The position numbers and the translations under genes were made by a program. From Anthopleura xanthogrammica (lineage: Eukaryota > Cnidaria > Anthozoa > Actiniaria > Actiniidae): 64,000 nucleotides of DNA. The notes beneath the pieces are model-generated. The model had not been told where the DNA came from. It was given only the letters and a program-made list of their open reading frames with translations, and did not search any database. How positions within the stretch are numbered: the first letter of the stretch is position 1; every line of letters begins with the position of its first letter. The stretch is taken from NCBI GenBank assembly GCA_964019055.1, contig OZ025213.1, forward strand, positions 6,498,472 to 6,562,471, read 5' to 3'. This document shows positions 9,542 through 63,475 of the stretch, one piece after another.

Positions 9542-9657
9542 CTAGTCATATCGTCCATAGGTGATCTGTGCTCTCTTAAGAACATTCTCTCTGTGAGGCA
9601 CAGTAGCGATGTTGGAGCGTCTTCTCTTGAGTTCGGTAGAACACTTCCCTTGATTAT
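9542..9657 (-). CDS. Copy A exon 32: basic C-terminal tail
   Basis: Last coding exon, entered in phase 1 and ending in TAG at 9542. It encodes about 38 residues rich in Arg/Lys ([18 protein letters not shown]) with one Cys. There is no domain match; the C-terminus is not a GPI signal or TM segment, which fits a soluble secreted product. Copy B's counterpart (41329-41444) is the same length and nearly the same sequence. Confidence 0.8.
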
Positions 9658-12115
9658 CTAATGAAAAAAGGGTTTCGAAAAGGTTAGGATGCAAGAGCAG
9701 TGAGTACGCTGCCACCAAAGCAAGATGTCGGTATTTCGACCTTTGATAATTTTTGCAGGAAGAATGCCAGAATCCTGAGTTTTCCAGCTTACCTTTTCTG
9801 GCAAAGACAGCTACTTCACAGAGTGTCAAATGTGTCGTTTCAAAGGCCTGCACAGACACGTACCGACCAGGGATGGCTGGATCACATGTGGATGTCCACA
9901 GCTCACCCAGGTGAGTTGCTGCCACTCTTTCACCACACATTGGATTTTTCTGGAATTCTTGTAGGATACCAACACGAATTTCGAAGTTGTTCAGTGAGTC
10001 TACTTTGGTACCCTCTGTAGAGATGGCATAGAAGAAGATATGCAATTATAAGTTAGGAAAACTTTTTAGTTTTGCAGGCATTGTTTTCCATATATAGGAA
10101 GGAAAAAAGAAAGAAGGAAAGAACTGAGGAAGGAAAAATAATAGAAAGAAAGGAAGGAGTGAAGGAAGGAAGGAGGGAAGGAAGGAAGGATAATGGAAGG
10201 AATGATCGAGGAAGGAAGTACCTACTCTTGGAAAAACCACTTATGTTAAACCGTCTTTACATTACATTAGATAGTGAGATTGCCATTTGATAAAAATTCT
10301 TCCTAAGTGAACTTACCGCTTGTAGTTTGAATGCTGACATCAGTAATAATGTGCTCAGCTTGAAGGTCCACTTTCCACCAGGGATCCTTACTACGGGACG
10401 TATGTGAACAGGATCCTTCTCGCAGGGCAAAAGACATGTCCCCATTTACAGCTAGCCCAGCACCGGAATTGGCAAATATTATATTTCGCTCATCTTCATT
10501 AACGTTTTTCAATTCTTCTGCCGTAAGGTCTTTTTGGTTGAACGTACTTGATTGCGTAGCGGGTTTATTGAGTGCCAAATCTAGAGACAAAAAAAGTTAT
10601 TTAAGACAGGTAACGATTATCAAGTTTCTCTTTGCTAGTCGGAGAAAACGCTACGGCTACCGCTACGGCTACCATTACCACTACTACCATTACCACTAAC
10701 ACTACTCTACCACACACTTTCAGTCTAGGATCATCATCAACCCATCACCCTTCTGTAGCACCACCCCTCCCTTGTTACTCAGATCTTACCTTGTACATAG
10801 TTATCACACACTTTCAGTCTAGGATCATAATCTACAACCCATCACCCTTCTGTAGCACCACCTCAGATCTTACCTTGTACAAAGTTATCGCACACTTTCA
10901 TTCTAGGATCATCTTTTACTTCCCATTCTTCTTCTGGTGGCACATTAAAGTCCTCAGTCTCATCTTTTGGTGGAGGTGTACAGGCAGCAGCAGTAACCAC
11001 TTTTCCACCTGTGCCAGCTATAAAACAATACAATAGTTGATCATTCTTACAGAGTCAAGATCGTCAAAGAATAGGTCAGTCTTGAGCCTACAGCTACAAT
11101 ATTGGACAAAGCTGTTGAGGCACTTTGACATGTTTGAATGATTTCAAAGCATACAAACGCAAATGTTGTTCCTCCCTTCCCCTTCACCCCACTACACAAT
11201 GTTGGTTGCGCTCAAAAATCGTGGCTGGCATATTAGCAAACCTTCTGGAGCAAAATTGAATCGAGGGGGAGGGGAGGATCACAAGCAAGTTTTTTTTTTT
11301 AGATACATGAGTTTCACAAATGCTATACAGTGCGAAAGGCTACTGTCTCAACTAGTTTTGTCCACGATTGTAGCCATTTAATTCCAGCCCGATCATATTC
11401 AAGTAAGAGAGCAAAACGTACCTTTTTCACTCAAGCAGTCTGTTTTACTTTCACCCAAGAAGATTCTGTTATGTTCACACGTGAAGTGTTGGTTCTTGTT
11501 ATTGATCTTACAGTCTTCTTGAACGATCTTGAGGTCTTTACCTGTACCAGTGAACGACAGGCATAGTCCACTATACAAGTTCTGGATTCATAGCAGTATT
11601 AATTAGCAAAAATGAATTGAGATTAGAAAAATTAAATTATCAAACTCATTAATATTCATAAGGCCAAACACAATAGAAAATTACAACCATGACCGAGTTT
11701 TTAAATCGGCAAGAGATTTGTCCTGGTTTGCATACAACTTTAACTCAGATTTTCTCGGCGAAAAGTGCTTTTATCTTGAAAATTTAAGTAACACATGACC
11801 TAACTATCCTAAACCTTTGATAAGTGAGATAAAACATTCGCGTCCGACCTTTATGGGGCTAAAAAGGCCCCATTTTAAATCCCCATAAAGGTCTCCCGCT
11901 CATGTTTTATCTATCACATAAACATTTATGTATGTGGTTTAAAAGAGACACACAAAGCAGCAGCCATGACAACCCTAACAGCAAATTTGGGACAGAAAAT
12001 TAAATGATTTGATTTACTGCCATCCCCCCCTCCCCCCCCCCCCCCCAACGATGAAAGGAGACAAGTGAAAAGAATTGAAACCAAAAAATGACAACAGTGT
12101 ATGCTTTTTATTTGC

Positions 12116-12193
<78 letters not shown>

Positions 12194-15100
12194 GATGATG
12201 ACGATGATGATGATAGTAATGATTACGAACTTAATGATAATAAATTTGCTTGAAGAAACAAATAATATCAACTTCTAAGTGATAGATAAAACATGAGCGG
12301 GAGACCTTTATGGGGATTTAAAATGGGGCCATGCGAATGTTTTATTTCACTTATCAAAGGTTTAGGATAGTTCGGTCATGTGTTACTTAAATTTTCAAGA
12401 TAAAAGCACTTTTCGCCGAGAAAATCTGAGTTAAAGTTGTATGCAAATCAGGACGAATCTCTTGCCGATTTAAAAACTCGGTCATGGTTGTGATTTTCTA
12501 TTGTGTTTGGCCTTGTGAATATTAATGAGTTTGATAAGAAATGATAATGATGATAATATGATGACATTAATGAGTAATGATGGTGATGATCGATGGTGGT
12601 GGTGATGATGATGAAGTTGGTAAACTACATACAGTAATTTGACAACGAGCCTTAATGTAACGAGTACATCACTGTTTTCATGGATTAATCTGCACTTACA
12701 AGTAACTGGCCAGTCAGCGTGTAGACCCACTGGGAATCTGCACTAGAGCAGGCGCTCATCCCGATGGAAGATCCTTTGATAAGAGCAGGGCTCGAGATAC
12801 ACGTCTGACACTTGCTTCCGGAGTTACAGATTCTGAATGGAGCTAGAAACAGCAATAAGGTTTAGATGCATTGAAAATGAAATTAAAGGAGCGGATACAC
12901 GTTGCAGTAATCGATTTTGCAAACCATATCACACAGGGAGCCCACAGCCACTGGTAGAATCTGTTTTAGTGATTATAATAAAATATATCATGCGTAAATG
13001 GCACGATCTCGGCGGCGTTTCTGGATTGGTTGAAGTTCAAGTCTAAATATATTTTCAGCTGCTTACGTTCCTAGTGTAGGATGTAGTGACAAGGGACGGC
13101 GTGTAGTAAACCACTGTAGGTGTACTTGTATTATCAAATGGTACTTGTGTTGTGTTGTGTTGTGTTGTGTTGTGTTGTGTTGTGTTGTGTTGTGTTGTGT
13201 TGTGTTGTGTTGTACAGTGGTATGGTATGGTAGGAACCGTTGTTGTGCATGTTGCGTGAGGTGGAGTTTACCACGTGGTGTGATCAAGGTGTACTTGTCG
13301 TATTATCAAGTGGTATAGTACATGCATCAATCAAGCATAAGCAAGCTCTAGCCTTACCTCCAACCACCACATCACCAACATTGTTCGGCTTGTCGTACGT
13401 TGTATCCGTATATCTCTTACTTATCATCTTCTTGAGCTCAGCTATAGCTTTGTCAGCGATTGCTTTACCTAACTTGACCAGCTCGGCCAACTTAATACTC
13501 AAGAGACTGATTTTTCTGCGAACCTTCATAATAGTGATGTCAACTGAAATATCGGCGCTCATCCATACAGTTGGAGAAAGTTCAAGCTCGAAAACAATAC
13601 CATGGACTTTGAGCAGATCTTTTAAAAGAACGTCGTGGATGCGCTTTGCCCAGTGAAAACTGTCTTCTACCAGTAAAAGAGACTTGTGAGCCAGATCGAG
13701 CCCTTTGCAGACACCTTTTATAATGTGCTGTGGGAGTAGACAGGACGCTAGAATAAAAAAAATACAGATGAAGATATCATACTTATAAATACTATGGGCT
13801 TGAATATGACAATTAAACAAATAGAAAGAGAACTCATCCAATCAAATAGTCCAATTCACGTACGGTTTTCGGCAGCCATTTTGAATTTGGGCAAACCCGG
13901 CAAAATATATACCAGATATCTGGATCACTTTGACTTCCCGTAACTCCGCTCAATTTTGTCGGATTTTCAAAGTTTAAACTTTTTTCAAAAGATATTATCG
14001 TTGTTATTTATGACCCGATATTGAAAAGCTACAAATTGAGAAAATGAGATTTTTTTGTTTTCATAATAAAACGATCGGCACGATTGACACGTGAATTATG
14101 GAAATTATAGAAAAAAGAGTGACTCGTAAATGATCTTATTGATCTTATTGATCTTATTGATCTTATTGATCTTATTTTCAGTCTGACAGCTGCTGTACAT
14201 CCCTGCTGGTTATTGAATTTTAACTTTTGAAAATCCGACAAAATTTCAAAGTAATCCAGATTTCTATATATTTTGCCGGGTTTGCCCCAATTCAAAATGG
14301 CCGCCGAAAACCGTGAAATGGTCTATTAAAATTCTTGACACGACAATGCACGTGATGTTGATATGATTGTGGCGTCAAAATAATATATTAAGACGCTTCT
14401 TGAATTCTGACCAGAACAACCAATAACTTTGTTGCCGGAATGTTAAATATAGCTACATCCAACAGTTGGACACCGCCAAGTCATGTGAATACAAATTGCA
14501 GTTGTTTAACTCACCATCGCAGAAAGACCTTGATCCTTTACAGATGGCCGGAGCCAACGTCTTACAAAGATAATTGCCAACGAATCTCTTGCGTCTCAAA
14601 CGTGTCATCATCTGAGCTCGACCCGGAAAGAACTCGACGCTTCTGCGCTCTCGTTGCTTCTTAAATGTTGACGCTATTTTCCTTGCAACACCGATGAACC
14701 ATCCGCCTGTTTAAAGATAGAGAGATCATGCAGGACAACGTACCAGTAAATAATGTATTCCACAGTTTCTTATCATCAGGCATACATTACAGCCTAGGTC
14801 TTTTCAGTGGTGTGGAATACATAATGGTTTTGAGTGGCTTACCATATCCCGCTTGTCACTCGTATATATTTTCTTGTATGGTTAACTCGCCTGAAGGCTC
14901 GTGTTTACATTAGAGAGTTCAAGTGCCTTGTGGGATAGTCCATTTTATTATATGAAATAGAGTGTGAAATTGAGTGACAGCAAAATGATAAAATTGATAT
15001 CCCCACTCCCACCAGTGGCCAGTTGGGATACGATTTTTATCAACACTGGTGGTGTCAAATTTCGACCAAAGTCAAATTCTCCATTATTTTTCATTGAAGA

Positions 15101-18100
15101 TTTCATATAATAAACCGAACATTACATGGCCGCTTGGAGTTACGAATTTTATCTTCTTGTGCTGACATTAATTCTCTCACTCGTTCGCTGCGCTCACTCG
15201 TGAGAGATAATAGCAACACTCGAAGATAAAATTCGTATCTTCGCGCGACCATGTAATATATCCTCTATGAAATCCACTCAAAACCGTAAATGACTGGGAT
15301 ATATTGATCAATAACTTACCAAATTTGTTTGCCGCTCCACCTATATAGTTCTTGAACTCATCCAGTGCTAACTGACAATTTAACCGGACCTGGAAATTGA
15401 GAGAAGATTAGAGTAGATATACATAGCTACTATAGCCGCCTGGAGACATTGTAATCATCATCAGTCATCAGTACTATTATAATCACCGCCGTTATCATCA
15501 TCACCAACATCATAAAGTTATGCGTCATCATCACAATCATTTTGTTATCAATGGTTATCATCACCATCATCACCATCACCATCATTATTCTCCATCATTA
15601 GTCATCATCATCATCACTATCATCACCGGATCAGTGTTTGAAAATCAGCTAGCAATAATATTTTTAACATCGCTCATCATCATCATCATTTTTACGTTAT
15701 CATCATTGTGTGTGTTTTACCCGTCACATTATCATTACATAAAGTCTGCCCTTATCTCGACTTTAGTATTAGAAGATAATTCAGTTTGATCTTCCTCAAT
15801 GAGCTGTTTATCGGCTCTTGAAGAGAACACGGAAAAAATATGTAAAATAAAAATACCCCAGATAATTCTTACCGTGTCGCAAACAATGTCTTTGCACTTG
15901 CCGCAGTAATTAGTTACTTTTTTCTTACATTCGTCTTTCTGTTTCTTAACTTTGTCTCTTGCTTCCTGAATCTTAGTTCTTGCCCGATTGACAAGGTTTC
16001 CAATCGTTGCAGAGGCATCTTTATTAATCTAAAGTAACAGCAAAAGGGGAAAGAAAAAAAGAAATGTTTAATCATTATGATATAAGACACAATTTGCAAA
16101 CCTTTTCGCTTTCGCTTCGACTGAGAAGAACTGGATTTTAATTTCTTCTTCGGTGTAAATAAATGGGTAACAAAACCATTCTTGTATGAGGAATGTACAA
16201 ATGAAATAAAACCCCTACTACAGTGGAATAGTCCCTTTCACAGTTCCCTGCGCCATCTTGAAAGGTATAGTAGCCGTGCCTTTGCATTAAAGCGAGACCA
16301 ATGGTAAGCTTGCAATGATAGAGACCTTTTTCAACGCCTTGGACAGTTATTCACATGTCTCTATCATTGCAAGCTCACCGTTCGTCTCGCTTCGATGCAA
16401 AGGCATGGTTACCTTTCATGATGGTGCAAGGAACTTTGAAAGGGACTATTGGTAGCTGAAACGTATGGTTAACATACGAGAAAACTGCCACCAGGGACAT
16501 TACCCGGCGTTATAGGCCCGTTGCGGGACACAATCACGTGCGACAAAACCAAATTGGGTCACATAGAATAGACTATATTCTTTGATTTCAATGTTTTCAC
16601 GTTACGGACCACGTGTCATTCCCTAGAGTATCATTTCTTTGTTTAACTGTTGCGCATGAGAAGACACATGAATATGGATATAGATCAAACAAAAAGTCTT
16701 ATTCTCAAGAGAATGACACATGGTCTGAAATGGGAAACTATTGTAACGCCACAAATAAGGCCTATTGAACTGAAAACCTTTACCTCCATGTGTCCACTTG
16801 TCACATTCAACCTAGCCAAGAAGCCATAGTCGTTCAGTTTAGTTCCATAGGTACCTTTGATATAGACTTCGACTTCTAATTTGATACGTGGCAGGCCCAG
16901 CCTAAAACTAGCTTCGATTAATTTGGGCTTGAAATGAAACATGATCTCCGTTTCCACGTCGAAAATCTTGGTGGCTCCTTTAAGGTAAATCTAAATAAAA
17001 ACATGACATCAGATTTTAATTATTTTTAAAGACTGAGTAATCAGGCATGATAATTTATAAATTTAGTCGAGTTGTCTCTGATTTTTGAATTTGAAAAATC
17101 CAAACGTTTCAACCGAGGTACTACGGTCTTCATCAGTGGTCTAATGGTTGGCTGTATGCAAAACGTCAGTTCAATAGATTCTCGTACACCGTAGGGAATT
17201 GAATGTGTTCGTTCATTGTGTTTTTAACACGCATCGAGTGCCAAGCCTCTAAAAATAATCTTTTGTTCCAATCGCTTTCTCGGTCAATGATTTCGGTGTT
17301 TTTTAAGGACTTCAATTTCAATTTATCATTTTAATTTGATGTCACTCAATATCACACTCTATTTCATATAATAAAAAGAAATATATTAAAGCTGCAGAGC
17401 ACGAGAAGGGCAACAGACTTGGCTGCGTATGGTTTTGTAATCCTAAGTTGGCCAAGTAGAATCGAGATCTACTTCTACAACGTTGCGCGCAACTAGTTTC
17501 ATATCGCGTAACACGACCTGCAGAGGTTGCGCAATACGTTGGCCAAGTAGAATCGAGATCTACTTCTGCAACGTTGCGCGCAATGTGTGAACACGGCCTG
17601 CAGAGGTTGCGCACAACGTTTACCAAGTAGAATTTAGATTTACTTGTGTAACGTTTCACATAACAACTTTCCGGCATCGTTTGAACACGTCCGGCAACGT
17701 TGCTGGAAATATGAAGCGTATAGTTGTGGTCAGAATTGGGTGTGAAATCCTTTGAAATTCTGTCTTCAACAAGGTCGCACTCAACACATCAGCTGCACCG
17801 TGTTCGATTCTATCGAGAGAATCAGTGCTGCCCTATGTGGAAACCTACCAGGCGCACGCTTGGAAAATTGGCGGAGAAAATTTTCCTAGCGCGCGTTTAA
17901 AAGGGTGGGACTTTTACGTACCTCCAATGATAGTGGGTCTATACTAGCGTCTACAGAAAAGACCGGTCCAAGGTTCTTATTAGCCAACGACTGAAAGAGC
18001 TCAATCTTGCCCAACTTGAATGGAGATAGTTCCACTTTGAAATACACTCTCTGTTTGAAATATACACAGTAAGTTATACCAGTCATGTCTCTTATTTAAT

Positions 18101-21100
18101 TAAAGTTGGTAAAGAACAGTTTTCACCATCATGCGATGCAAAATGTTTCATGTTTCTCTGGTTTGTACGTACTTTTAAGTACCAATTCAAATTCGTTTAA
18201 CGCAAATAGCGCGTGCATATAGTCTTTGCTATTTCAATCCTTGTAATTATCTACTTTTAATTTTGCACTGAAGATGCACTAGAAGTGCAAAAGCTCAGCA
18301 TTTGAATAATCGTGGAAGAAACAAGTACCGAGATTTACTCAGTAAAATCCTGTGTAATAAATTTTCGTTCGTTCACTTTTCCCAACCAATCACAATGCGC
18401 GTATCGCTTTTTCACGTGTGAGAAAAACGATACGTCCAATCAGAAGCCACGTACGGCTTTTCTTCACGTGTGAGAAAAACGATACGTCCAATCAGAAGCC
18501 GGCCGCAACGGGCTCCACTGCTCTTTCGTGTGAGGCTTTCGACTAAACTAGAAAGTTTTTATTTCAAAACATGAATGAAACTATATTTTAGACGACAAAA
18601 CCAAAGGGAAAATCGATAAATTACCTATAGTAAAGCGGAGAAAAAGCTGCCTGAGATGTAAATCTACTGGAAAAGTTCTTTAAAAGTACTGAAAACTTGA
18701 ACAACAACAAGGAAAGTCAGCTTCAGTTACTTTTGTAAGAAGACGACTTCAGTTCGGTGATACCTAAACTAGAAAGTTTGAGTTCAAAACATGGATGAAA
18801 ATATAATTTAGACGACGAAACCAAAGAGAAAATCGATGAAATACCAATAGTAGAGCGGAGGAAAAGCTGACCGAGATGTAAATCTCGTGTAAAAGCTCTT
18901 AAAAATGTATTAAACAACAACGAGGAATTGAAAGGCAGCTTTGTCGTGTAAGAAGGCGACAGAAACTTCGGTAAGCTTTCGCAATCATTTTTAGTGTAAA
19001 CTAAAAGTCTAGAAGTTGAAAAGATTAAACTTAGAAACCAGGCCCGTAACCAGGGGGGAGCACAGGGTGCACGTGCACCCCCCCCCCCCCCCCATCAGAC
19101 CAAAAGGTCCGCTTTTTATCAACATTTGTTTGTTAAAGTTAATAAAGTTCATTATTATTATTATTGCTTGAAAATAAAAAAAAAATACAGATTTAATGTA
19201 AATCAAAACTATAACGGCTACTTCTATTTTCTATACTACACTTAGGTCCATTTTTACTTGATGTGCACCCCCCCGGTAAATGTTCTGGTTACGGCCCTGG
19301 AAACCGAATTAGAATTTAATAAGAATAAGTTTTTATTATGCTTGTAAAACAGCGTTGTAAAATAAAGAATTATTGCAATATAATTTTTAGTTTGGAAAAT
19401 GAGCTTTGTTTACAAATTTTTTCAAACTAAAATAGTCTCTAATTCAAACCAAATTGAAAATCTCGGTATGAATATAATAAAAAGAAAACACCATGGAAAT
19501 TGCTTTGTACAGTTTTTATTCACTCGTTGTTTCGTATCATAAAACTCACGCGCTCGAAGACTCGCTTGTTCGTTTTATGATACTTCACAACTTGTGAATA
19601 AAAACCGTACGCGCGCACTTTCCATGAAGTAATCTCTATATATTATATTCCATGCAAATGACCAATGGCGTTGCTCATTAAAAACTACCAAAAGCTATCC
19701 TGCATTAAAATTGTCTTATTTTCATTTTCATTCAATATATCGCTAGACAAACAGTCTTAAATATTTTAATTTCACATCGATATTAACATCCAACCTTATC
19801 CCTCTAGCATTAATTATATAGGTATAAATACTCGTTTTTCTTACCTTCAAGTCGAGTACAATTTGTGTGGCTATTCTAAATCCAAGGATTGTGAGTGCAC
19901 CATTGATGCTCAGTCCTTGTTTGAGCTCCTTTTCAACCCCTTGGTATTTAATAACTTGCTTCTTTGAAGCAAACGAAACCTTAAGGAAGAAAAAGAAAAT
20001 AGTTGAATAAGCAAGAAGGCTGATCAATCGATTCTTATCTCAGGTACGATTCCTGGACTCGGCATCACATGTGAGTAGAGTTTGTTGGGTCTCTCCCTTG
20101 ATTCAAGGGTTTTTGTCTGGGTTCTCCATGATTTTCCTCCCTTCAGTATGCAAAACTCTTGATCATGATTCGATGGTTTTTCTCCGGTTTTTCTCCCTCC
20201 ACAAAATCTAACAAACCTAACACGCTAAATTCCAACTCGATCTGTGAGCTAGTCGTGCCCTGCCTTTGATCAGCCCAGAAGTTGTTTCAGGGTATCGATA
20301 ACTTATGTAAGGGTTAGAGAATAAACGCGAGTGCTTTATGGGATTTAGAGCTCCGGGCATTGCAAGTTAGACATTAGTATTCCCTATATAGTGAATACTA
20401 ATAAGACCTTGAAACAAAAAGAAAACAAAAGGCCTTATTAGTATTCTCTATATAGGGAATACTAATGTCTAGCTTAGAGAATACTAATTAATAACCCCGT
20501 ATTTTCCCTGTGCTTCAAGGCCCCCACCACTTGACACCCTAGTTTCTCTATGGGATATAGAGCATTGAAATACTGATTGCTGATTGGTCGAGTGAGTATG
20601 ACTATATTCTAATGAAGGTTATAGTTTATCATCCTTTTCCTGTGTCCTTTATTCACCTTAGGCAAATAATTGTGCTTTAAAAAAGCTAGAAACGAGTGAG
20701 CCCTATTTTTCTGACTCCAGGCACAAACAAAAACACTTTCAATGATAATAATTACCGTGACTTCCTTCTCAAAACCACTGTTTGCTATCTTCTCCGGTAA
20801 CTCAAGCTTTGAATTAAACATTCTGAAGATTTTCCCAACAGTTACTGGAGACAGCGAGCCATACACGTAGTTTGCTTCCATTCCTACGCCCAGGTTGAAG
20901 TCCACTCCCGCTTTGATGCATCTCCCCTATCAAAACAAAGAGAATTGTTGATTCTTGTTTTCAGACAAGGTTCACACAGAACTTAGGGGGGGGGAGGGGG
21001 ATTGTATGACGTCCATCTTATTCCATTCCATGATCTCAAAATTAATCACAAGTAGAGTCACAATAAGAATGTATTTCATTTTAATGAAACTCGTCACAAG

Positions 21101-53186: not shown

Positions 53187-53217
<31 letters not shown>

Positions 53218-56200
53218 CGATGACATTAAAGATGATGATGACAATGCTTGATGATGAAAATGATGTTGATGACAATGATAATGATAACAATGATGATGAC
53301 AATGACTATGATGACAATGATTATAATGACAGTGATGATGATGACAATGCATGATGGTGATAATGATGGCGATGACATTGATAATGATGATGATGACAAT
53401 AAATCTCACCTGTGTATTAATCATAGAGTGAAAGATATTCATCTCCTCGGGTTTTTGCTTGATCTTGGCAAGCAGCTTATTCATAATTCCCTGGATAGAT
53501 GCTTGGTCAGATGTCAACCCAATCGCAAAATATTTCTGCTCGATAACTTCTACATTAAACTTTTCATTAGCACCAACTTTGACGGTACCAGAGATTCTCT
53601 TAGTTGTGTTTCCGAGTGCTTCCTTGAGATCATTTACCTTGACTTTAGAAAGACCGAGGTTCACCAGGTAATCGATTAAGATATTTTTAAGAACATCTTG
53701 GGCGAGCACAGCTGGGCTTCCAACCAAGGATGTTGCTTGTGGGAGAGATAACGCGTTGACGATAGCCTCTGTGACATTTAAAAAAAATAAAGTCAGGTTA
53801 GGTCTGTCGATCTCTTTTTAAAGTTGGGTTTCCTTTAGTGCAATTCCTTCATCAGTGACTACTTTTTTAAGCTGTATATATATAGAGAGTCGAGAAGTCG
53901 TTTTCGGGGGCAAATAAATCGTCAGATTAAGGCCCCGTTTACATATAGTTATGTTGACCCTACTGCTAGGGCCAACTAGCTCTTTGGTTTTTGGTGTCCC
54001 CTGGAGATACAAAAGAAGACTTTCCTCAAGCACTTGCCAGATGGATGGGTAGGACAGTAATGTCTTGAAACTTAAAGTTTGTGGAAAATTGACAGGGTAT
54101 CTTACCTAGGTCTGTTTTGCTGTTACTCGTACCAACCAATACTGGACCTGATTTTAACTTGAATTCCACATCGAAAATGCTGTTAACAAATTCGTGTTGG
54201 CCATACGCTACGATGCCTCTTTCTCCTGGCTTTTCCTTGAAGAAGAACTTGACATGTCTAATGACGACATCTTTGACGGGTGCGTACTGATCTGCCTCTC
54301 CAAGGCTGAACTCCACTAAATAAAAAACACAGTTAAAAAGATGAAAGAAACGAATAAAATAAAATGAGATGGGTAGTCAAAGCAAACGGCCAAACGAGCT
54401 AAGGATTTCCAGACAGCTATGTTTGAGGGCAGGAACAATGCAACGTGGGTCTTCGGTTTACAATGGATTTAATTTCTCAAAACGAAACGAAACGAAACGA
54501 AATGAAGCAAAACGAAACGAAGCAACAAAAAAAAATGGGATGGGATGGGTAGTCAAATTACAGAAAGTCAAATGCTCAGAAGGTTTCTTTCTTGCTTACT
54601 ATCACTACACTCATTTTTTACAGCACAAAACACAACTTTAACTTTTGCAAATCTTCTCAACCAAGACAAATATTCTTTGATTTATCTACAACGTGAAGAT
54701 GTTTCCGATCCTTTTTCACTAATTTTAAATGATATGTGCTTGTCAACTGAAGTTTTACGTTTCCTATCATACCTGCATGTAGATCTCCATTACTCTTCAG
54801 CGTTACCGACAGGCCAGCGGTATTCTCAGTACCATTAGGTTTGCTAAATCCAGGTAATGATGTCGTCTTATCATACCCAGCAAAAGGTCCTTTAAGTTTC
54901 TCCATTGTTAAAGGCGTCTTGGGTAGAAAGCAAAACTTCGTGACATTTTCATCATCTTGCTCTTCTTCTACCTTGGCAAAGTAGCTGGTTGTGATGATGC
55001 CTTTAACTCCCGCCAAGATCTTGTCGGCGTAAATCGACTGTGGAATGTCTTTGGAGTTCAAAGCGAAGGTAGCAGTTTTGGCTTTGCATGACTCGGTGAT
55101 GAATGACGTTGGCTTGAGATTAATCGTTTGTCCCTCGAGAGCTAAAGTGAAACAACAGAACAGATTTCGTGTGAGTTTGAGGGTCACATACAAATTGCAT
55201 CTACAAAAGAAACCTATTGCTTGGTAGGTTTCAATCAGCTATAATAAAAGTCTTTGAATTAAGTCTTTGAATCTCATATGCTCCAAACGATGGTTAAACC
55301 CTAATCACTATCACTATGTGGCTGTGCTGTCCAATAATAGAAAGCTTGCGATTCAGCTGATAAATATTTCGCACGAGACAGGAAATGACGTCAAGTGAAT
55401 TAAACTCAACAATCTAACCTAATATGAAAGCAAAATATATGTAACGTGCTCTTGCAACAGAGATCACGTAGCTTCAGTTCCAAAAGTGATATCATTCATC
55501 AATTTACCTGACTTTGATTATCTCAGAGGATATTTCAGTTTTTCTTTCCACTTTTAAAAGCGTAAAACTTGGTAAGTTTTTTAAATACTTACGTTTGCAC
55601 TTGTCTTTCGGGCACAGTTCATCTTCAGTATCCGAGCCAATGCATGGATCACCCCCCTCGGCAGGGGCTGGATTGTCACATTTACGTTTTCGTTTCATTT
55701 CGCCCTGGTCACAGAACACTTTCTCAGTGCATGCTGACCATGCAGCCCATTTGCCCCAGTTACCATTCACTGCATCTGGAAATAGACAAGTCAAATACAA
55801 TCATTATTTAAGCAATAGAAAATAAGTTCCTATGACTCAACCGCGGGGAAATAGAGCACGCGGGATGTTAGGCCGAAATGTGTAACAGATAAAACTGACA
55901 AACTTGAGTCTGACAAAGTAGTTTTCACTGAAGGAATTGTATTGAAAAAACCTCATATTCATTATGTAAACATTAACATTTCTGAAAACAATTTGGTGAA
56001 TCCAACTTAAAAGCCAAATAGAAGAGAAAATCCCTCAAGATTTGATTTGAAAAGTTTGCAGCGCGCGCGGATGTCGTTAGTAACGTACCGTGCTTCGTTC
56101 ACTAATAAAGCACAGTTCCCGACCAATCAGCGCGTTTGTACTGGCTATCCAAACTATATAGTAAAATCATGTAGAACAATAAAGTTTGCACATGGTGTAT

Positions 56201-59200
56201 TTCATCATAGAAATCTGATATCCTTTTCCGTCGTTTTCGGCGGAAAAACAGACAGTTCGACAGTTAAAACAGATGTGGGAAGTTCCTTGACAATTAAATG
56301 TATTTCTACAGTTGCAGAGAAAATAATCACGTGACCCGATTATCCTTCAATATCTTCTAATGTTTTTGCTTGAATTTGATTTTGCTCAACTTGTTCGTCA
56401 ATTTTTTTTTTCTTATACTTTCAAATTTTTTTCCCACTCACTTGGACATTTTGCCAAATTGCAATTTTCAACTTCCTTGCCGTCCTTTTCTGGACACTCT
56501 TTCCCGCCAAAAGCAGCAGGGGGGTTGGTACAGTTTCGTTGACGTGTCTTTTGTCCTGGACCACATGTTGTGCTACATTCACTCCATGGTTCCCAGTCGG
56601 TCCATGCTCCATCGACTATAAATACAACGATTTAATAAGCACACGAGAATCACAGGAAGGCTAGGTTTAGACCTACTAAAGCTAGTTGATAAATATAAAT
56701 CATTGAACCATTCTCGTAACCAGGCCCTTCTCAGTTTCTGACAAGGGTTTGGGTACGAGAATGGGTTCTGGCCAACTACGTCTCATTGACAAGGAATAAA
56801 GGTTCATCATTAAGTTATGAATGAGTTATTATTACTTACTTGGACAATGATCAGTACAGTCTGTTGCAGTCTCGGTACCATCTCCTTCACAAGGTAAACC
56901 ATTTCTCAGTGGAGCAGGATTGCTACACGTTCTCTTACGCGTTACAACGCCTCCACCACAGGATTTTGAACATGGACTCCAAGCTCCCCATTCAGCCCAG
57001 TTACCATTGACAGGCCAATCTGGAAAAAATAAAAGAATTATAATTAAATAAAAGGAACAGGAACTGATGGCCAATAAAATGTTGATTAACCATCCTGGAA
57101 ACAGAATTTTAAAAAAAATTAGAAATATATATTTTACATATAGGCTTTGGCAACAGAGCTAGGATCCAACACACCATGTGATGCCACTCTTGGGAGTTGA
57201 TTCTTTCATATGTGTAAATATTTTAATAAAAAAACATTTCTCAACGGAATGTACATGTCATGTGGTCTGAAATGGACAATTTGCATACGAAACTAAAGAG
57301 GTCTACTAGTTGAAAGTCTAAGATCGAATTGGAATTTAGAAGTTAGTTGTTAAGAAATACCCAACTTACATACAACATCGATCCCGGAAATCGAGCCCAG
57401 GTTCCATGATTGAAAGGCAGCGATTTATCAACGCCTACTACCCATGTTACCCAACGAAAAAGGAATAAATGGTTTGTAAATGGAGCAGCATGGCACGCAA
57501 AATGACTATTAACTGCAGGGTGTTCTGACACAGATGCGTGAAACGCGAATATCTGGTGGAATAATATTGACAGCGGATAAAATTTTAAAAATGGTGGTGA
57601 GAGTAGTGACACTAAGATGATAAAGGAAGAGGATTATACCTTCACATTCTTGGGTACAGTCCATTTTTGTCTCTTGTTTTGGTCCCACGCAGTTTTTCCC
57701 ATTGTTTTTGGGAGCAGGGTTATCACATACCCTTGTTCGTGTCACTTTAGATCCACCGCAGATCTTATCACACTCTGACCAGGGAGTCCAAGCTCCCCAG
57801 TTACCATCAACTGCACAGAAAGAATAAAACAATTAATGAGAACTGTCTGTCTGAGGACCGAGACGTGATGAAGACTAACTCCATGCAGTTGGCCAAATCC
57901 TAGTCCTCAATAGAGGCGACGATACGGTTTTCGAGTAAGGAGAAGGGGAGGAAGCTAAAGCGAATGAGCTTGGTTAAATAGCCAAAAAGTCGTGGGGCGG
58001 CCTTTTTTGTGGGTGTTGTGGGTGTAAGGGACATGGACAGACATTCCTGAAAAATGAGGTTTGTGTGTGTGTGTGGGAGGGGGGGGGGGGGCTCATTATC
58101 CCCCTCCCTCTCCTCCGTTCCACTTCCCCGGGCAGCTTATGCAATTTCTCTTGGGACTTCTAAATCAAATTAACGGCTTGACAATAAATCTAATGATTCA
58201 AAACGTACCTGGACAGGGTGCTTTTTCATTATCAAAAGTAGTAAAAATCATGCCTTTCAACATGCATTTTTTTCCTCCTTCAGAAGGCACAGGATTCGTA
58301 CATGCTCTTGTTCGAACCTTCTGGTCCCCACCACACATCCCCGTACCGCATCCACTCCACTCCGACCAGGCTGACCAACCTCCGTTTTCTTGTTGCCATG
58401 GTAAAAGAGATAAATAGAGTTAGAAATTCTTTTACTGATCAGTGCAGCAGTTGTTTCAGGGTATCAATAAAATTTGACAATTTTAAACGAAAGTTAAGAC
58501 AAGCACTTGATGAGCAGGAAGTTGTGAAGTTCTAAGAAGGTTGTAAGTAAATAAAGATAAGCAATACCTAAAGCAGTGGCATCTATGAATTTCTGCAGCG
58601 TGGTCTTGTCAGACAGTTTACAGTTACACTTGAAATCATAGACCTCGCCAACTTTTGGCATTGATTCGACGCTAATGATGATCTGTGTGGAAAAAGCGTC
58701 AAGTTTTTAGATCAGCTTACATTACAAAATCTAAAGTGCCTATCAATTTTGACGGTTCAGTTTGAAAATTACTTCTGCATGTAGGGTATAATACGATGAC
58801 ACAGTTTCACAGGATATGGATTTCTCACTTCAGAGATATAAAGGATTAAAATTTCAAAATGCAAATCCGAAAAATAGCAATTCGATATGTGAGTTAGCCG
58901 TGCCCTGACCGCTTTGATCAGCCCAGAAGTTGTTTCCGGGCTCTATCTGTGAGTTAGCCGTGCCCTGACCGCTTTTTTCAGCCCAGAAGTTGTTTCAGTG
59001 TTCAATCTGTGAGTTAGCCGTGCCCTGACCGCCTTGATCAGCCCAGAGGTTGATTCCGGGCTCGATCTGTGAGTTACCGAGCTCTGACTCAGTTGATTAG
59101 CCCATGGTATTTCTTGCCTGCTTGCGTCGTTTCAATTCTCACAAGATATGACTGAGGATACTCATGATTTCGAATCCCATTTTACTTAGTTTCGATTGTG

Positions 59201-62200
59201 ATGCTATTAACACTAGTATCAACGTGCCCTAAAAATCCATATACCTTGTCAAGAAGCCAGTCTTTAAAAGTAACGCCTTTATTGTCCTTCCTGATACTAA
59301 TCTTCTGAATTTTACCAACAAAAGGACCATAGATGGTGATTGTCTTGCCACTAAAGCAAACAAATAACACTTTCAGAATAATAATCACTATGTGAATAAA
59401 ACAAGGCAGATAGAGCAATAGGAAAAGAAAGCAATAACACGGTACCAATAGAGTAAATGACAAGGAAAGGTCGATTGATGAAACACAGTGTTCTTACCAC
59501 CCGGAGGAAAAACTGCTTCCAAGTTTGACTTCCCCAAACTCGCCTTCTTCCCCGACTACTTGTATGTAGGCGCCTGAATTTGTTCCTGAACCTAGCTTGT
59601 CTCCAGAACACACGGTCACCAAATATGTTATTTCTGTTGAGAAAGGTAACGATTAGAACACCAAGGCAACAATTAAAAAGCTTAAAGACAGGGAGAACAA
59701 GAAGTACAAGAAGAACAAGAAGAACAAGAAGAACAAGAGACACAAGAGACACAAGAACAGAAAATAAAATTGTCACAATTGACACAAGTTTCAGCCAAAA
59801 GGTTCACCGTATAAAAGCAATTAGAAAAAACCTACTAATGGTCTATCACCAATCGAGCCCTGTGATTGGCTGAGCTACTAGGGGTCTATTAGTGATAGAC
59901 CTCTAGTAGCGAAAAGCGCCGGTTTTGAAAACCAAAAAATATATATTTAAAGCAAAATCCAAAACTTTTTGCATCCATTTATTGGACCGATTAGTAGGTT
60001 TTTACTAAAACAATTAGACCTCTCGCCCTCATGGCCTACGAGTCAATAGCCCATTCGGCCTTCGGCCTCATGGGCTATTGACTCGTAGACCATTCGGACT
60101 CGAGGACTAATTGTTAAGTATACAACTTACTATATTAACGAGGAAGAAGCCTTGTTAAATTCAATTATGATTCCCACGTACAAAGAAATTTTAGATTTAG
60201 TTTCAAGTATACAGCCATTTAAAAATAAAAAAGTTGGTGAAGGTTTTGTTGCTTGTTGCATACCAAGCCCCAAATGCACTATGGGTGATGTGAATCCAAG
60301 CAGCAAAAGGTCAAAACGATACGGAAATGTTTCCAAACTTTGTCTGCAGGTTTTCCCAGCATATTTTATTTTGTGCTGCATATTAATATGATGCATTTCA
60401 ACCTTGTTAAACAACAAGCAAGATGCAGCATGCAACATGCAAAAACTTTAAACAACCATTTTTTTAAATAGATGTATGCAGCACGTGCACGTAATCGTCT
60501 TTACCTCCGTATTTTGGATTACACTGCAAAGACGCTGTTTCGACCTCCATATGCTTGTAGGCTTTTGTTATGAATCGCATGTCCATCATTCCACCAAGAA
60601 ACGCGAAGGTAATTTTGCCGGCTGCGTCTGTTAAACCTCCGATCACAATATCGTTCCCCCACACCAAATATTTGCCTGGTGGAACATCTTTAATCTTGAT
60701 TGTTTTGTCGCCGTTTACGAAGAGATATGCTTTACCCTGGGTTCCATCGTACTTGGCAGTCACGTGAGTCCACAACCCTGTCACGCGGTAAAAATATATA
60801 AATATTATAGTTGCCGGCATAGGGAACTTTTGCACCGTACAATGTATTACTAGGGAATGTATTTCAGGCCAAAGCAGAAATAGGATAAAAATATCGAAAA
60901 AAAAATCAAATAGTCAGCGACAACCCTTTTCATTCAAGATCAAAATTCTCATTTGGTAGTTTGATAGTTCAAATACTGTAATTTTTTGGCCGTTTTCCGA
61001 ACCGGTCGTTGTTGTACCTTCAATATATAAGATTAGCAGCTACTGCCCGTTTTCCGGAAAACGGTAGGAGCTGGTCTGGATCCGTGGCTGTATTTTGTAT
61101 GAAATACTAGAAAAAATATAACAGAATAAGATGTGTAGGAAAAAATCTCGTTGCTTCACAAAGAAGGGTGTTTTATGGCCCCCTTGTTTGTTCACGCCGT
61201 CACATTACGCACGCAGGCTAACTGCGCAACCAGAGTGAAGCTAGAGAAATCTAACATACCTGAAGGAATGATCTCGTCCGTCTGCATGGTGAAAAGGTTA
61301 TTGTTTTTGGCAGTATCAACCTTCCACCTTAGAATAGAGCTCAACATGTTGGATGCCGGGATCACCTCAAGCAACTGAAGACCTCCACCAGGAGCGGCCG
61401 TCGAGTACACTGTCGTTCGAGGGACAGTTTTACGAACACGAATCCAGGTCATGAATGTCATTTCGCGTTTAGGTAATGGTGTAAGGGACTTGCTACTAAT
61501 TTTGACATGTCCACCATCGAACACGAGCCATAGCCCTTTACAGTCTCCCTCATACTTTGGTGTCGTAACTTTGCCTTCGATCTTGATTATTTTCTGTTCG
61601 ACCAATGTGTCGCTGAACATTTCGTTGTTCAAGATCATTTCTAACAAAAGAAAAGACCAATAAGAATCACGATTGATAAAAATCAATGAATCAAAAAAAA
61701 TTACGGGAAAATACCTAATTTCAAGAAGGTTGTCATATAAAAAATAATTAAAATTACCAAATAGGAATTAATTATTTTTGAAAAACATTATTTCACTGTA
61801 CATGTTTTGAAGTATAGACTGATACTTTTGAGAATATCTTGTTGGTATATTACTAAACATTTAACATCAATCAATCTAGGGGGCTTTAGAATCAAAACGA
61901 AGAAAATATTTCTAATTAATTCTAATTTGTTATTTGTTATTTGATATTTCTATGTGACAACGTTCTTGCAAGTTAGGTGTATCCAAGATGAAACTAAATT
62001 CTGGTTTTAGGGATAAATGAGTTAATTTTTTTGGTGGATATTTATCCTTACGCGATAGCGGATCCAGAATGATTTCAACGGGGTAGCTGTTACCTAGAAA
62101 GCTTCCCCAACATTTTGCATTACTCAGTTATTCTTATTTGTTTAACAAAATGTCGCACTTTGCCTTTAGCTTAGTAGTTGTCCATAATCTATATAGCGAC

Positions 62201-63475
62201 TACCATTCAGTTCTTTAATGTCGATATAATCTTTTGTTTCTTTCATACCTTGTTGCTCTTTGCTTTCTTCCATAGCATTTACATTCGTCGAGCTTTTGAC
62301 TCCGCTGTCTATGAAAATGACAATGACAATGTATTTGATTTAATTTGTGCATATCTATACACATTTATACAATCATTTTGATAAAGATTACACCATGTCT
62401 GTACCTTGACTGACAGAAATACTTTTTACATGATCCGGAATAATAGTGCCAGTACTTCCCGCGGTCACGCCTTCATCGGGCAGCGTCTGATTAGGTTCAA
62501 ATACTAGTCCTTCTTCTGTATAAAGAACACGCGTTCAGAAAAGTTAAGCGATTCGCCTTAGTGGTACGGACAAGCATTACAACCCTCAGGCGGTCAACAC
62601 TGGCTGATTGTATGGTTCAGCTCTTGGACTGTAAACTAAAGGCTTATGAGTAACTAAACTGGTCTCGCTGCAAATTTGGACCAGAGGTGTAGGGAGGGTC
62701 GGAAGGTCTTTTTGCATCTTTTTAACATTGCCGCTATATCATTCGTGCATGGGATGAGGTTGCATGATCATTTGTCGGCATCTAGACCCCCTTAACCCGT
62801 CAATCGGCATTGATTTTGTATGTGCATGGATGAGATCATTCTCCAACATAGAAATAAATATTATTAACAAGCTTCCGTTTATCGAGTGGAAAAAAGACGA
62901 AGATATACCTGTATGAAAGGCTGGTATTCCCTTGCTCATGCCTTTTTCCAATTGGTTATCTGGTAAATGATCACTGCTACCATTACCAACTAGTTCTGGC
63001 CGGCTCAAAAACTGGTCAGTACCAATCCCTTCCTGGAAATTGGTATTGTTGCTAGGCGACTTGGCATTAACGCCATTACTTAACAGGTTGTTCACTTGGT
63101 TACCAGGTAGGACATCATTACTGGAATCTTCGTGGTAATCTTCCTGGTAATCTTCCTGGTTGGTAGGTAGCCTAGCCTCGGAGTCAAATTCCATGTCATT
63201 TTTCGGTCCACTCTCGCGTTCGTCTTCTTGCTGGACCCTTTCCTGGACATCACCCTGCTGTGCGGTTATACTTTGAAAATTATCGTTCTCATCTCTAATC
63301 ACAGCGTCGACACTATCAGTGATAGGATATGAGCCAGCTTCTAATGGTTGTGTGGTCAGCGGTGTCTGTATGGCTCCAGCATCATCAACCATACCATTTG
63401 AATCAAAGTAGTATGAAACAGGAATAAATTGCTTCTTGACATTTGGCTTTCTATGATAACCTCTGTTGCTGCAGA
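41329..63475 (-). CDS. Giant secreted lectin/PLAT/TSP1/discoidin protein, copy B (partial, exons 2-32)
   Basis: Tandem paralogue of copy A, open at the window edge. Exons: 62909-63475, 62405-62515, 61260-61640, 60505-60777, 59498-59633, 59245-59350, 58568-58682, 58209-58388, 57640-57810, 56840-57019, 56442-56615, 55593-55775, 54773-55141, 54106-54315, 53410-53768, 50692-51012, 50119-50357, 49802-49901, 48644-48814, 48246-48383, 47861-47992, 46513-46719, 45845-46000, 45515-45584, 44487-44876, 43670-43812, 43059-43218, 42789-42932, 42027-42290, 41576-41797, 41329-41444. All have GT/AG borders and the same phases as copy A, and no internal stop, so both copies look functional. Length differs only by whole codons: exon 2 is 114 nt shorter, exon 3 +6, exon 16 -3, exons 21 and 22 +3 each. 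Exon 1 (signal peptide) lies beyond base 64000; with it the protein would be 2178 aa if exon 1 is unchanged. Confidence 0.85.
41576..42290 (-). CDS. Copy B exons 30-31: discoidin domain
   Basis: Exons 42027-42290 and 41576-41797. All landmark strands of copy A are kept ([35 protein letters not shown]). Differences sit mostly in surface loops ([16 protein letters not shown] against [16 protein letters not shown]). Confidence 0.85.
42556..42830 (-). repeat. Array of exon-29-end copies with decoy donors (copy B)
   Basis: At least three diverged copies of GTACATAGTTATCGCACAC, TTCAGTCTAGGATCA and CCCATCA-CCTTCTGTAGCACC follow the true exon end; two retain a CTCAGATCTTACCTTGTAC block identical to the exon-intron junction. 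Longer and more irregular than in copy A. Confidence 0.7.
42789..42932 (-). CDS. Copy B exon 29: Pro/acidic linker
   Basis: 144-nt exon, 1-1 phase, essentially the same protein as copy A ([19 protein letters not shown]). The last codons and donor lie at the edge of the array of duplicated exon ends. Confidence 0.8.
43059..43812 (-). CDS. Copy B exons 27-28: ricin-B-like segment
   Basis: Exons 43670-43812 and 43059-43218. Motifs [20 protein letters not shown] and [11 protein letters not shown] match copy A. The intervening intron keeps the conserved middle stretch but has no inverted arms. Confidence 0.72.
44232..44360. repeat. (TGGTC)n pentanucleotide array, copy B
   Basis: About 22 units of TGGTC ending in TATGG variants, flanked on both sides by the same sequence that flanks (TGTGT)n in copy A. 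Flanking direct repeats of about 30 bp (ACCAC-TGGTGTGATCAAGGT) are also present. Long frames across it are artefacts. Confidence 0.95.
44487..44876 (-). CDS. Copy B exon 26: helical segment
   Basis: 390 nt, 1-1 phase. Changes from copy A are confined to the first third (for example MHDVIFKD against IHDVLLKD); the rest is identical at the DNA level, continuing into the intron. Confidence 0.75.
45110..45334 (+). other. Conserved antisense ORF in intron 25 (copy B)
   Basis: Counterpart of 14440-14664: the same 74-codon frame survives, with six amino-acid changes seen (for example SELDPE to FELDPE). The frame is open further upstream in copy B (from 45056). Function unknown. Confidence 0.35.
45515..55141 (-). 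CDS. Copy B exons 14-25: beta-rich core of unknown family
   Basis: Exons 54773-55141, 54106-54315, 53410-53768, 50692-51012, 50119-50357, 49802-49901, 48644-48814, 48246-48383, 47861-47992, 46513-46719, 45845-46000, 45515-45584. Strand and turn patterns are those of copy A ([37 protein letters not shown]). Exons 18 and 19 are among the more diverged parts: the end of exon 19 reads [10 protein letters not shown] against [10 protein letters not shown]. Cys positions are conserved, including the CGKCKDIVC cluster. The intron after exon 16 holds a 1.87-kb insertion. Confidence 0.75.
46315..46483. repeat. Foldback repeat, ACCACGTGTCATT family, longest copy
   Basis: The inverted ends extend further than in the other copies: GGCGTTACGATAGTTTCCCA, then TTACGGACCACGTGTCAT; right end ACATGGTGGTC-type inverse then AATGGGAAACTATTGTAACGCC. 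It probably shows the true termini of the family. Confidence 0.8.
46945..47385. repeat. About 88-bp minisatellite, five units (copy B)
   Basis: Five units starting GTTGGCCAAGTAGAATCGAG and containing TGCGCAACAAGTTTC and GCAGAGGTTGCGCACAACG. The last unit matches the last unit of copy A (CTTTCCGGCATCGTTTGAAC), so the array expanded or contracted internally. Confidence 0.88.
47459..47635. repeat. Foldback MITE, AATAG termini, 177 bp, copy B only
   Basis: Near-perfect palindrome: AATAGACGATTTTCGAGATG and GCGCGAGCGCTTTCAA, then ATATCGCAGGCGC, mirrored to ...CGTCTATT. Copy A keeps the empty site at about 17730 (GTCAGAATTGGG), so insertion followed the gene duplication. Confidence 0.92.
49139..49345 (+). 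mobile_element. LINE 3' fragment (CR1/L2-like)
   Basis: The plus strand encodes [12 protein letters not shown] then a stop, the usual end of CR1/L2-type reverse transcriptases, followed by TTGTAAAGCGCACTTGAACA and TTGCGCTATATAAATACAG and an (ATTTT)n tail. GCGCTATATAAAT is a common 3' signature of these LINEs. Only about 200 bp remain. Confidence 0.7.
49372..49541. repeat. Foldback MITE, CCTGGTTTTCACTA termini, copy B only
   Basis: Left GCCTGGTTTTCACTACCACG and CAAACACAAGCACAAGC; right inverse GCTTGTGCTTGCGTCGTAGT, GAAAACTAGGC. The middle is made of repeated CTTGTGCTTGCG blocks, with an extra internal copy of GTCGTAGTGAAAAC. Confidence 0.85.
51158..53023. mobile_element. 1.87-kb element with about 150-bp inverted repeats, copy B only
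   Basis: The left arm TCCGGTTTAGACGTCGAAGT..., CAAGAGACCATGA.GGACAGA, GATATCGGTATTCCTCGAAA, GCGTCAGCATGCCCTTGCGC, CTTCCGGTT is present inverted at about 52819-53023. The right arm has an extra 56-bp hairpin (CGAATCTAATGCAAATGA and its inverse). The interior carries a 114-bp tandem duplication and no recognised transposase, so it looks non-autonomous. Copy A lacks it at the same intron position (about 24500). Confidence 0.88.
52111..52338. repeat. 114-bp perfect tandem duplication
   Basis: Two head-to-tail copies of a unit starting ATTCAAACTCTTGTAAAGTC and ending CCTGTGGTCCATGAC; I see no difference between them. It lies inside the 1.87-kb element. An apparent 90-codon minus-strand frame with a duplicated peptide is a by-product. 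Confidence 0.92.
54478..54530. repeat. (GAAAC)n microsatellite
   Basis: Units of AACGA/GAAAC with a few changes, in the copy B intron between exons 14 and 15. Absent from copy A, which has the 330-bp foldback in the same intron. Confidence 0.8.
55593..58388 (-). CDS. Copy B exons 9-13: five TSP1 repeats
   Basis: Exons 58209-58388, 57640-57810, 56840-57019, 56442-56615, 55593-55775, all 1-1 phase and the same lengths as copy A. All W, C and R landmarks are preserved. Small changes: the first begins [11 protein letters not shown] and has [15 protein letters not shown]; the fifth has [10 protein letters not shown] and GEMKRKRKC. The fucosylation motifs in repeats three and four are kept. Confidence 0.92.
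58568..59633 (-). CDS. Copy B exons 6-8: PLAT domain
   Basis: Exons 59498-59633, 59245-59350 and 58568-58682. The frame fixed by phase again gives [21 protein letters not shown] sequence (here ITYLVTVC...), [18 protein letters not shown] and FKDWLLDK. Same exon lengths and phases as copy A. Confidence 0.85.
58880..59105. repeat. About 60-bp minisatellite in intron 7 (copy B)
   Basis: Four units of GTGAGTTAGCCGTGCCCTGA, CCGCTTTGATCAGCCCAGAA, GTTGTTTCCGGGCTC. The units carry a shared CCGC insertion absent from copy A's array, showing that the arrays evolved separately after duplication. Confidence 0.85.
59823..60113. repeat. Two foldbacks in copy B intron 5
   Basis: 59825-60006 has ends AACCTACTAATGG and CCGATTAGTAGGTTTTTAC plus an inner GGTCTATCAC/GTGATAGACC hairpin. 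60011-60113 is a strong palindrome (CAATTAGACCTCTCG, TACGAGTCAATAGCCCAT, then the mirror ATGGGCTATTGACTCGTA). Neither is present in copy A. Confidence 0.8.
60505..61640 (-). CDS. Copy B exons 4-5: ConA/LamG-like lectin domain
   Basis: Exons 61260-61640 and 60505-60777. Exon 4 is nearly identical to copy A; exon 5 differs mostly near its end ([19 protein letters not shown] against [19 protein letters not shown]), keeping the final Cys. Confidence 0.88.
62405..62515 (-). CDS. Copy B exon 3: short linker
   Basis: 111 nt. It includes two extra codons (HVKSISVSQ against HVGSVSQ) before the shared donor CAAG|GTACAG. Reading on past this donor meets a stop after GTDMV and an approximately 80-bp insertion, so the second donor available in copy A is not usable here. 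Confidence 0.65.
62909..63475 (-). CDS. Copy B exon 2: acidic Asn/Gln-rich region
   Basis: 567 nt, 1-1 phase. It starts [15 protein letters not shown] and contains one copy of the [12 protein letters not shown]...DNQLEKG unit and a local [12 protein letters not shown] expansion not in copy A. It also has [10 protein letters not shown] in place of a shorter Ala/Ser stretch. Low complexity, likely disordered. Confidence 0.8.

Follow-up and report, generated by a model that had tools for sequence, protein, structure and literature searches.

A tandem gene family for giant modular secreted proteins with a predicted amphipathic core in the sea anemone Anthopleura xanthogrammica

What kind of protein is encoded by the two long, similar genes, here called copies A and B, that lie in tandem on the minus strand of a 64,000-base stretch of the Anthopleura xanthogrammica genome (GCA_964019055.1, contig OZ025213.1, positions 6,498,472 to 6,562,471; hereafter the window, numbered from its first base), and what would it do outside the cell? 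An initial annotation had proposed a signal sequence, a low-complexity stretch, LamG, PLAT, five thrombospondin type 1 (TSP1) repeats, a large core, a ricin-B-like lectin and a discoidin-like domain in a single chain. The reading that we favour, tentatively and with slightly less than even confidence, is that the product is a secreted, furin-processed protein of matrix, mucus or surface that would bind glycans together with lipid or membrane.

Gene structure, modules and closest relatives

Minus-strand gene models, derived from open frames, an alignment of the copies with each other, splice scoring and a small splice-aware chaining script, with every junction checked, establish the structure of the copies at the level of sequence. 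Copy A runs from 38156 down to 9542 in 32 exons and encodes 2,239 amino acids. Copy B also has 32 exons and encodes 2,202 amino acids, with exons 2-32 at 63475-41329 and exon 1 at 65264-65216 (extended coordinate), beyond the end of the window. All 31 donors are GT and all 31 acceptors are AG in A, in B and in a third copy, C, and the intron phases of A equal those of B and those of C at 31 of 31 introns each, with no internal stop in the three coding models. The initial annotation, which had threaded 31-32 exons in unbroken phase and had seen no disabling change in either copy, is borne out in both respects, and its end points, 9542 and 63475, are the stop codon of A and the start of exon 2 of B. 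The product of 2213 amino acids that it gave differs slightly from both models.

A Pfam search of model B places each known module above its curated cut-off: TSP_1 with 4.4e-43 over five stretches, and one domain each of Laminin_G_3 (1e-11), PLAT (1.1e-10), Ricin_B_lectin (1.4e-11) and F5_F8_type_C_2 (9.8e-12). This confirms the proposed architecture around the core, and the hydrophobic start encoded by exon 1 supports the proposed secretion signal.

Among 7,988 candidates scored, the matches listed at an E-value of 0.001 are only LOC5511196 (P0001), an uncharacterized Nematostella vectensis protein of 2,297 amino acids, and P0002, an unnamed open reading frame (ORF) of 2,766 amino acids that matches the core alone (E 5.6e-10); further cnidarian relatives may lie beyond the matches listed. 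LOC5511196, the closest named relative among these matches, aligns across 100% of the 1,381 residues searched with 41% identity and 1108 bits, and its Pfam modules agree with those of the window copies in kind and order. A sea anemone as closest named relative fits the initial annotation's suggestion of an anthozoan. It resembles the window copies in its full length, module order, paired furin-type sites, 62 of 67 cysteines and C-terminal tail, but its N-terminal low-complexity part is unrelated (18%) and it has no assigned function. The common module order and the homologous full-length core argue that the window copies and LOC5511196 belong to one family of orthologues and paralogues. The module string is entire in the Nematostella protein and mostly retained in the paralogues of the window's genome.

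No such protein is named in the literature searched, including passages of PMC12549020, PMC4890752 and PMC5446238, a search that did not cover supplementary gene lists, and no mention of LOC5511196 was found there. In agreement with the view that this is not a nameable protein, no known family covering the full length was found. The cnidarian proteins of the thrombospondin type 1 repeat (TSR) superfamily, as described in part of PMC5446238, are likewise secreted and carry several TSP1 repeats, but their partners are astacin, VWA, trypsin, ShK and Ig domains rather than LamG, PLAT, core, ricin and F5/8. Assignment to the thrombospondins proper is rejected, since their defining type 3 repeats and C-terminal domain were looked for in Pfam scans of model B, LOC5511196 and P0002 and not found, only TSP1 repeats being detected. 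Assignment to the vitellogenin/apolipoprotein B (apoB) family is rejected likewise, Vitellogenin_N being absent from the Pfam results at E up to 0.5 and 1 for model B and the Nematostella protein.

Paired furin-type sites and the core domain

Exon 25 of copy A encodes RERR/S at residues 1718-1721 and RRKR/F at residues 1737-1740. Two R-x-[KR]-R sites lie at matching cysteine-rich positions in all six of A, B, C, Nematostella and the paralogues D and E, and paralogue F has RRKR and RRRR at the same place with an 18-residue spacing, giving paired sites in seven of seven sequences. These seven amount to about five independent lines because A, B and C are nearly identical around the sites. Composition-shuffled proteins contain 0.27-0.61 such motifs, and extra single motifs occur elsewhere at Nematostella 349, D 740 and E 1778. 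In seven of seven sequences, the second site is succeeded by F and then by V or I, and a hydrophobic F[VI]..x[LI]C stretch stands directly after the paired sites. With the consensus present at both positions, a two-chain protein is predicted, and cleavage would excise a 19-residue peptide from A, B and C, a 21-residue one from Nematostella, D and E, and an 18-residue one from F. The cysteines are conserved as well, 62 of the 67 in A being retained in Nematostella, 52 in D and 56 in E. In the C-terminal tail, B and C each share 38 of 39 residues with A, and Nematostella shares 15 of 35 and retains the motif KRA..TYG.Y (KRA.xTYG.Y). In the tails of A and B (9542-9657 and 41329-41444), a dibasic KR precedes the conserved nine-residue end, which might possibly be a released peptide.

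The core of model B, 1,018 amino acids long, has no family above threshold in Pfam, NCBIfam or PDB. Pfam gave four families, all below cut-off, the best being ApoLp-III with an E-value of 0.0086; NCBIfam gave no family for LOC5511196 or P0002, and PDB searched by sequence gave only chance-level rows (E 0.19 and 0.28; 0.45 for P0002). With a six-row core alignment as query, none of the 7,994 candidates scored, a set limited in length around the query of about 1,000 amino acids, reached E <= 0.001. BLASTP of each core against itself revealed no internal repeats. Search patterns matched 66 and 45 stretches in prokaryotic genome contigs and IMG/VR contigs, respectively, none of which was confirmed as a relative; there is no sign of a bacterial or viral origin within the sensitivity of the patterns used.

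The core consists of an N part, a conserved amphipathic beta part (about residues 1191-1620 of A) and a helical part. The amphipathic signal greatly exceeds the level found for soluble beta domains in the same chain, and about 430 residues are predicted to form a long amphipathic antiparallel beta-meander. Strand parity between Nematostella and the P0002 family agrees in 22 of 22 strands where Nematostella has letters, and strand alternation is seen in 17 of 23 strands at permutation p < 0.1; both measures are biased by the alignment and are not used as main evidence.

P0002 matches the cores of the window family with BLASTP E-values of 1e-20 to 1e-30, and its matching domain found 74 proteins including itself (P0002-P0075) among 7,989 candidates scored. 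All 74 are without a name, come from ENA assemblies and measure 1,527-3,948 amino acids. They share with the window family a conserved core domain of about 450 residues and the helices after it, but they lack LamG, PLAT, TSP1, ricin and F5/8 by Pfam on P0002, P0009 and P0042. There are several to a contig, with repeated beta modules followed by the same core domain at the end. Their ends are ragged past a conserved cysteine motif, which suggests single giant exons read through into introns. In the window's own genome, C10:138500-148200 carries on one strand an immunoglobulin (Ig) I-set exon (1.5e-21), two Frizzled-type exons, one at 4.2e-12 and the other, at 6.6e-7, narrowly below the cut-off, and exons resembling the core (Nematostella tblastn, E between 2.4e-9 and 3.3e-4); from their order we infer that these form one gene, which would place the core in a second, receptor-like context. 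An 896-residue open frame on contig C13 near 5.06 Mb (L029 4620-7310, minus strand) has a weak likeness to the P0002 family, with an E-value of 0.002.

Evolution of the copies and features of the window

A search of the window's own genome with single exons (289.8 Mb, 125 contigs) found three places on contig C8, namely A, B and, 4 kb beyond them, the third copy; weaker matches lie on C6, C10 and C13. Copy C (C8:6566128-6585632), just downstream of the pair, is intact, encodes 2,125 amino acids and is 64% identical to A; its exon 1 is a choice among four candidates. Paralogue D (C6, from about 404.5 kb) has five TSP1, core, ricin-B-like, LamG-like and PLAT-like exons, with no F5/8 exon seen within the part of D retrieved. 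Paralogue E (C6, about 437-456 kb) has five TSP1, core, ricin-B-like and F5/8 exons in a model that begins after the N-terminus, and paralogue F (C13, about 520.8-540.7 kb) has five TSP1, core, the furin-type sites, a weak ricin-B-like and a clear F5/8 part. More F5/8-type exons lie upstream of F on the same strand (C13:508300-511220). The family comprises at least six genes in this genome, and the tandem pair of the initial annotation, although correct as to two intact copies, is really a tandem trio with at least three diverged paralogues on other contigs.

The coding synonymous divergence (dS) between A and B is 0.108 and a neighbouring copy, C, is much more diverged; therefore, A and B are likelier to be real tandem copies than a false duplication of one haplotype. 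Nonsynonymous divergence (dN) between A and B is 0.055, giving a dN/dS of 0.51 overall, 0.86 in PLAT, 0.60 in the core and 0.31 in TSP1, and the core dN/dS between A and C is 0.17. The dS between A and C is 1.66 in the core and 1.39 in LamG and is low in TSP1 (0.24), the furin-site region (0.37), ricin-B (0.40) and F5/8 (0.50). TSP1 exons 9 and 10 (window 30136-30835 compared with extended 81221-81844, C8:6579692-6580315) are 97% and 95% identical between A and C, against mostly 54-75% for core exons. Aligned stretches of at least 150 bases between A and C stop close to exon borders, and introns do not align. The simplest reading of these patterns is that exon-limited gene conversion homogenises the TSP1 and C-terminal exons between copies; strong constraint on silent sites is an alternative for the low dS between A and C.

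Positions of the exons and modules of copies A and B in the window
Feature	Position	Strand	Basis or remark
Copy A exon 1, signal peptide	38108..38156	-	GT donor, hydrophobic start; B counterpart 65216-65264 outside window
Copy A exon 2, low-complexity N/D/S/Q-rich stretch	35835..36515	-	18% identical to Nematostella
Copy A exons 3-4 (33452-33832, 32932-33204), LamG/ConA-like	32932..33832	-	Pfam Laminin_G_3 on B model
Copy A exons 5-7 (32570-32705, 32331-32436, 31597-31711), PLAT	31597..32705	-	Pfam PLAT on B model
Copy A exons 8-12 (31238-31417, 30665-30835, 30136-30315, 29578-29751, 28120-28302), five TSP1, one per exon	28120..31417	-	Pfam TSP_1 on B model
Copy A exons 13-23 (26811-27179, 25696-25905, 25000-25361, 23539-23859, 22590-22828, 21441-21540, 20756-20926, 19845-19979, 17922-18050, 16784-16990, 15873-16028), core without named family	15873..27179	-	No Pfam above cut-off; homologous to P0002 family
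Copy A exons 24-26 (15320-15389, 14515-14706, 13358-13747), Cys-rich helical part, paired furin-type sites in exon 25	13358..15389	-	
Copy A exons 27-29 (12700-12842, 11422-11581, 10874-11008), ricin-B-like lectin and linker	10874..12842	-	Pfam Ricin_B_lectin on B model
Copy A exons 30-31 (10317-10580, 9793-10014), F5/8 type C (discoidin-like)	9793..10580	-	Pfam F5_F8_type_C_2 on B model
Copy A exon 32, conserved basic tail and stop	9542..9657	-	Comparison with B, C, Nematostella
Copy B exon 2, low-complexity stretch	62909..63475	-	Gene model
Copy B exons 3-4 (61260-61640, 60505-60777), LamG	60505..61640	-	Pfam
Copy B exons 5-7 (59498-59633, 59245-59350, 58568-58682), PLAT	58568..59633	-	Pfam
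Copy B exons 8-12 (58209-58388, 57640-57810, 56840-57019, 56442-56615, 55593-55775), five TSP1	55593..58388	-	Pfam
Copy B exons 13-23 (54773-55141, 54106-54315, 53410-53768, 50692-51012, 50119-50357, 49802-49901, 48644-48814, 48246-48383, 47861-47992, 46513-46719, 45845-46000), core	45845..55141	-	No Pfam above cut-off; amphipathic beta signal
Copy B exons 24-26 (45515-45584, 45185-45376, 44487-44876), Cys-rich helical part with paired furin-type sites	44487..45584	-	
Copy B exons 27-29 (43670-43812, 43059-43218, 42789-42923), ricin-B-like lectin and linker	42789..43812	-	Pfam
Copy B exons 30-31 (42027-42290, 41576-41797), F5/8 type C	41576..42290	-	Pfam
Copy B exon 32, conserved basic tail and stop	41329..41444	-	Gene model, comparison

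Elsewhere in the window, a single-exon rhodopsin-type G-protein-coupled receptor gene lies at 4158-5240 (minus strand; Pfam 7tm_1, 3.3e-46), and a 390-residue open frame without a Pfam match at 2120-3289 (minus strand) contains the start MGNCFS, which we take to resemble a myristoylation signal. Tandem units of about 89 bases with an inner palindrome occur five times in an intron of B (46946-47347) and three times in the matching intron of A (17422-17663).

Possible roles of the protein

In the favoured mechanism, the signal peptide would bring the chain into the secretory pathway, where a furin-type protease would cut the two neighbouring sites and a peptide of 18-21 residues would leave. Two chains would remain, probably held by disulfides: a large N-chain with LamG, PLAT, five TSP1 and the core, and a C-chain with the Cys-rich helical part, ricin-B, F5/8 and the basic tail. 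LamG, TSP1, ricin-B and F5/8 may anchor the protein on glycans and surfaces, and the core, as an extended antiparallel sheet that is greasy on one side and leads into amphipathic helices, may contact lipid or membrane. An amphipathic sheet with helices is, in secreted proteins, a design suited to binding lipid or membrane. The most likely role would be to coat or link surfaces, whether of matrix or mucus or of foreign cells, and to carry or contact lipid there. The first of these steps are drawn from sequence motifs, and the lipid step from the core pattern and a weak structural likeness; we infer cleavage, disulfide linkage, lipid binding and the place of action. The modules, the conservation of sites and cysteines and the amphipathic pattern can be read directly from the sequences. 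The glycan-recognition or matrix role suggested by the initial annotation is plausible, though from the modules only, and the skeletal-matrix or innate-immunity role that it thought possible is conjectural.

Several observations weigh against such a role for the core. Its N part (877-1190) has no amphipathic signal (z -0.0 to 0.7), no structural match reached an E-value of 1e-3, and no lipid-carrier family stands above the Pfam cut-off in model B or the Nematostella protein. Membrane barrels (VDAC, Tom40, porins, BamA) match at least as well as apoB and form the top structural rows, at large root-mean-square deviation, so that the likeness to the apoB belt is weak and shared with barrels; TM-scores are 0.06-0.30, and Z-scores at this level can reflect no more than a common arrangement. 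The full Nematostella structure model is poor (pLDDT 57.7, pTM 0.43), and PLAT in LOC5511196 is just under the Pfam cut-off (21.4 against 23 bits). ApoB and the large lipid transfer proteins are likewise giant secreted chains with a long amphipathic antiparallel sheet, but the window family lacks Vitellogenin_N and detected sequence similarity to them and has extra adhesive modules.

If the core were instead a rigid or self-associating beta spacer without lipid, the protein would be a structural scaffold of matrix, mucus or skeletal matrix, with furin maturing the chain, as happens in other matrix proteins, and the lectin-type modules cross-linking glycans. This is a possible but doubtful explanation: the module set is typical of matrix proteins, the N-terminus is of low complexity, the cysteines are conserved and greasy faces could pair with each other, yet the amphipathic signal far exceeds that of the chain's own soluble beta domains. 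Such a protein is also not named in the searched passages of the sea-anemone matrisome and coral skeletal-protein papers (PMC12549020, PMC4890752), which is weak evidence, as supplements were outside the search. The barrel-like structural matches of both models, the pair of activation-type sites with F[VI]..x[LI]C after it and the raised dN/dS of the recent tandem copies relative to the A-C core would fit an innate-immune or predatory effector, in which lectins recognise foreign or symbiont cells, furin activates and the beta core inserts into membranes as barrel or sheet; TSP1 proteins have been linked to symbiont uptake in anemones (PMC5446238). We consider this unlikely, because no toxin or pore family is matched and the raised A-B ratio may reflect relaxed constraint.

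A yolk-like or lipid-carrier-like nutrient protein outside the vitellogenin family, made in the gut and taken up via its lectin end, is improbable. The apoB-like belt and a weak apolipophorin-III resemblance of the helical part (the Pfam match above; PDB 1eq1, E 0.28), which may be a mere amphipathic helix, would suit it, but adhesive modules are unusual for yolk proteins and Vitellogenin_N is not matched. Separate genes or a pseudogene are opposed by the intact frames and by the single Nematostella protein spanning all modules, and as the intron phases keep the frame in three copies, it is very improbable that two or more neighbouring genes were wrongly joined in the model.

Returning to a lipid- or membrane-contacting core, there is a bolder proposal that we regard as quite unlikely: the core may represent a eukaryotic superfamily not described so far, whose members are secreted amphipathic beta-belts that resemble apoB, are independent of the vitellogenin/apoB family and have become joined to varied recognition modules (lectin and TSP1 here, Ig and Frizzled cysteine-rich modules in another gene of this genome, stand-alone giant arrays elsewhere). 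It would be a second class of carriers of extracellular lipid or lipid-modified ligands in animals, switched on here by furin excision of a short peptide.

The modules, the existence of the unnamed protein in Nematostella and the class of secreted mosaic adhesion or lectin proteins are known. No described family was found for the combination of modules with this core. New here are the paired furin-type sites, the predicted amphipathic beta core, its wider family and the apparent exon homogenisation between copies. Cnidarians form their matrix, mucus and recognition surfaces with large secreted mosaic proteins, and this family is long and conserved between A. xanthogrammica and Nematostella with a core that has no curated family and merits a domain family entry of its own. 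The paired furin sites and the near-invariant tail are testable handles. If the core binds lipid, it would be an unrecognised way for animals to handle extracellular lipid, and should it insert into membranes, it would be an effector of a new kind; the family may indicate a so far unstudied class of extracellular proteins that bind lipid or membrane.

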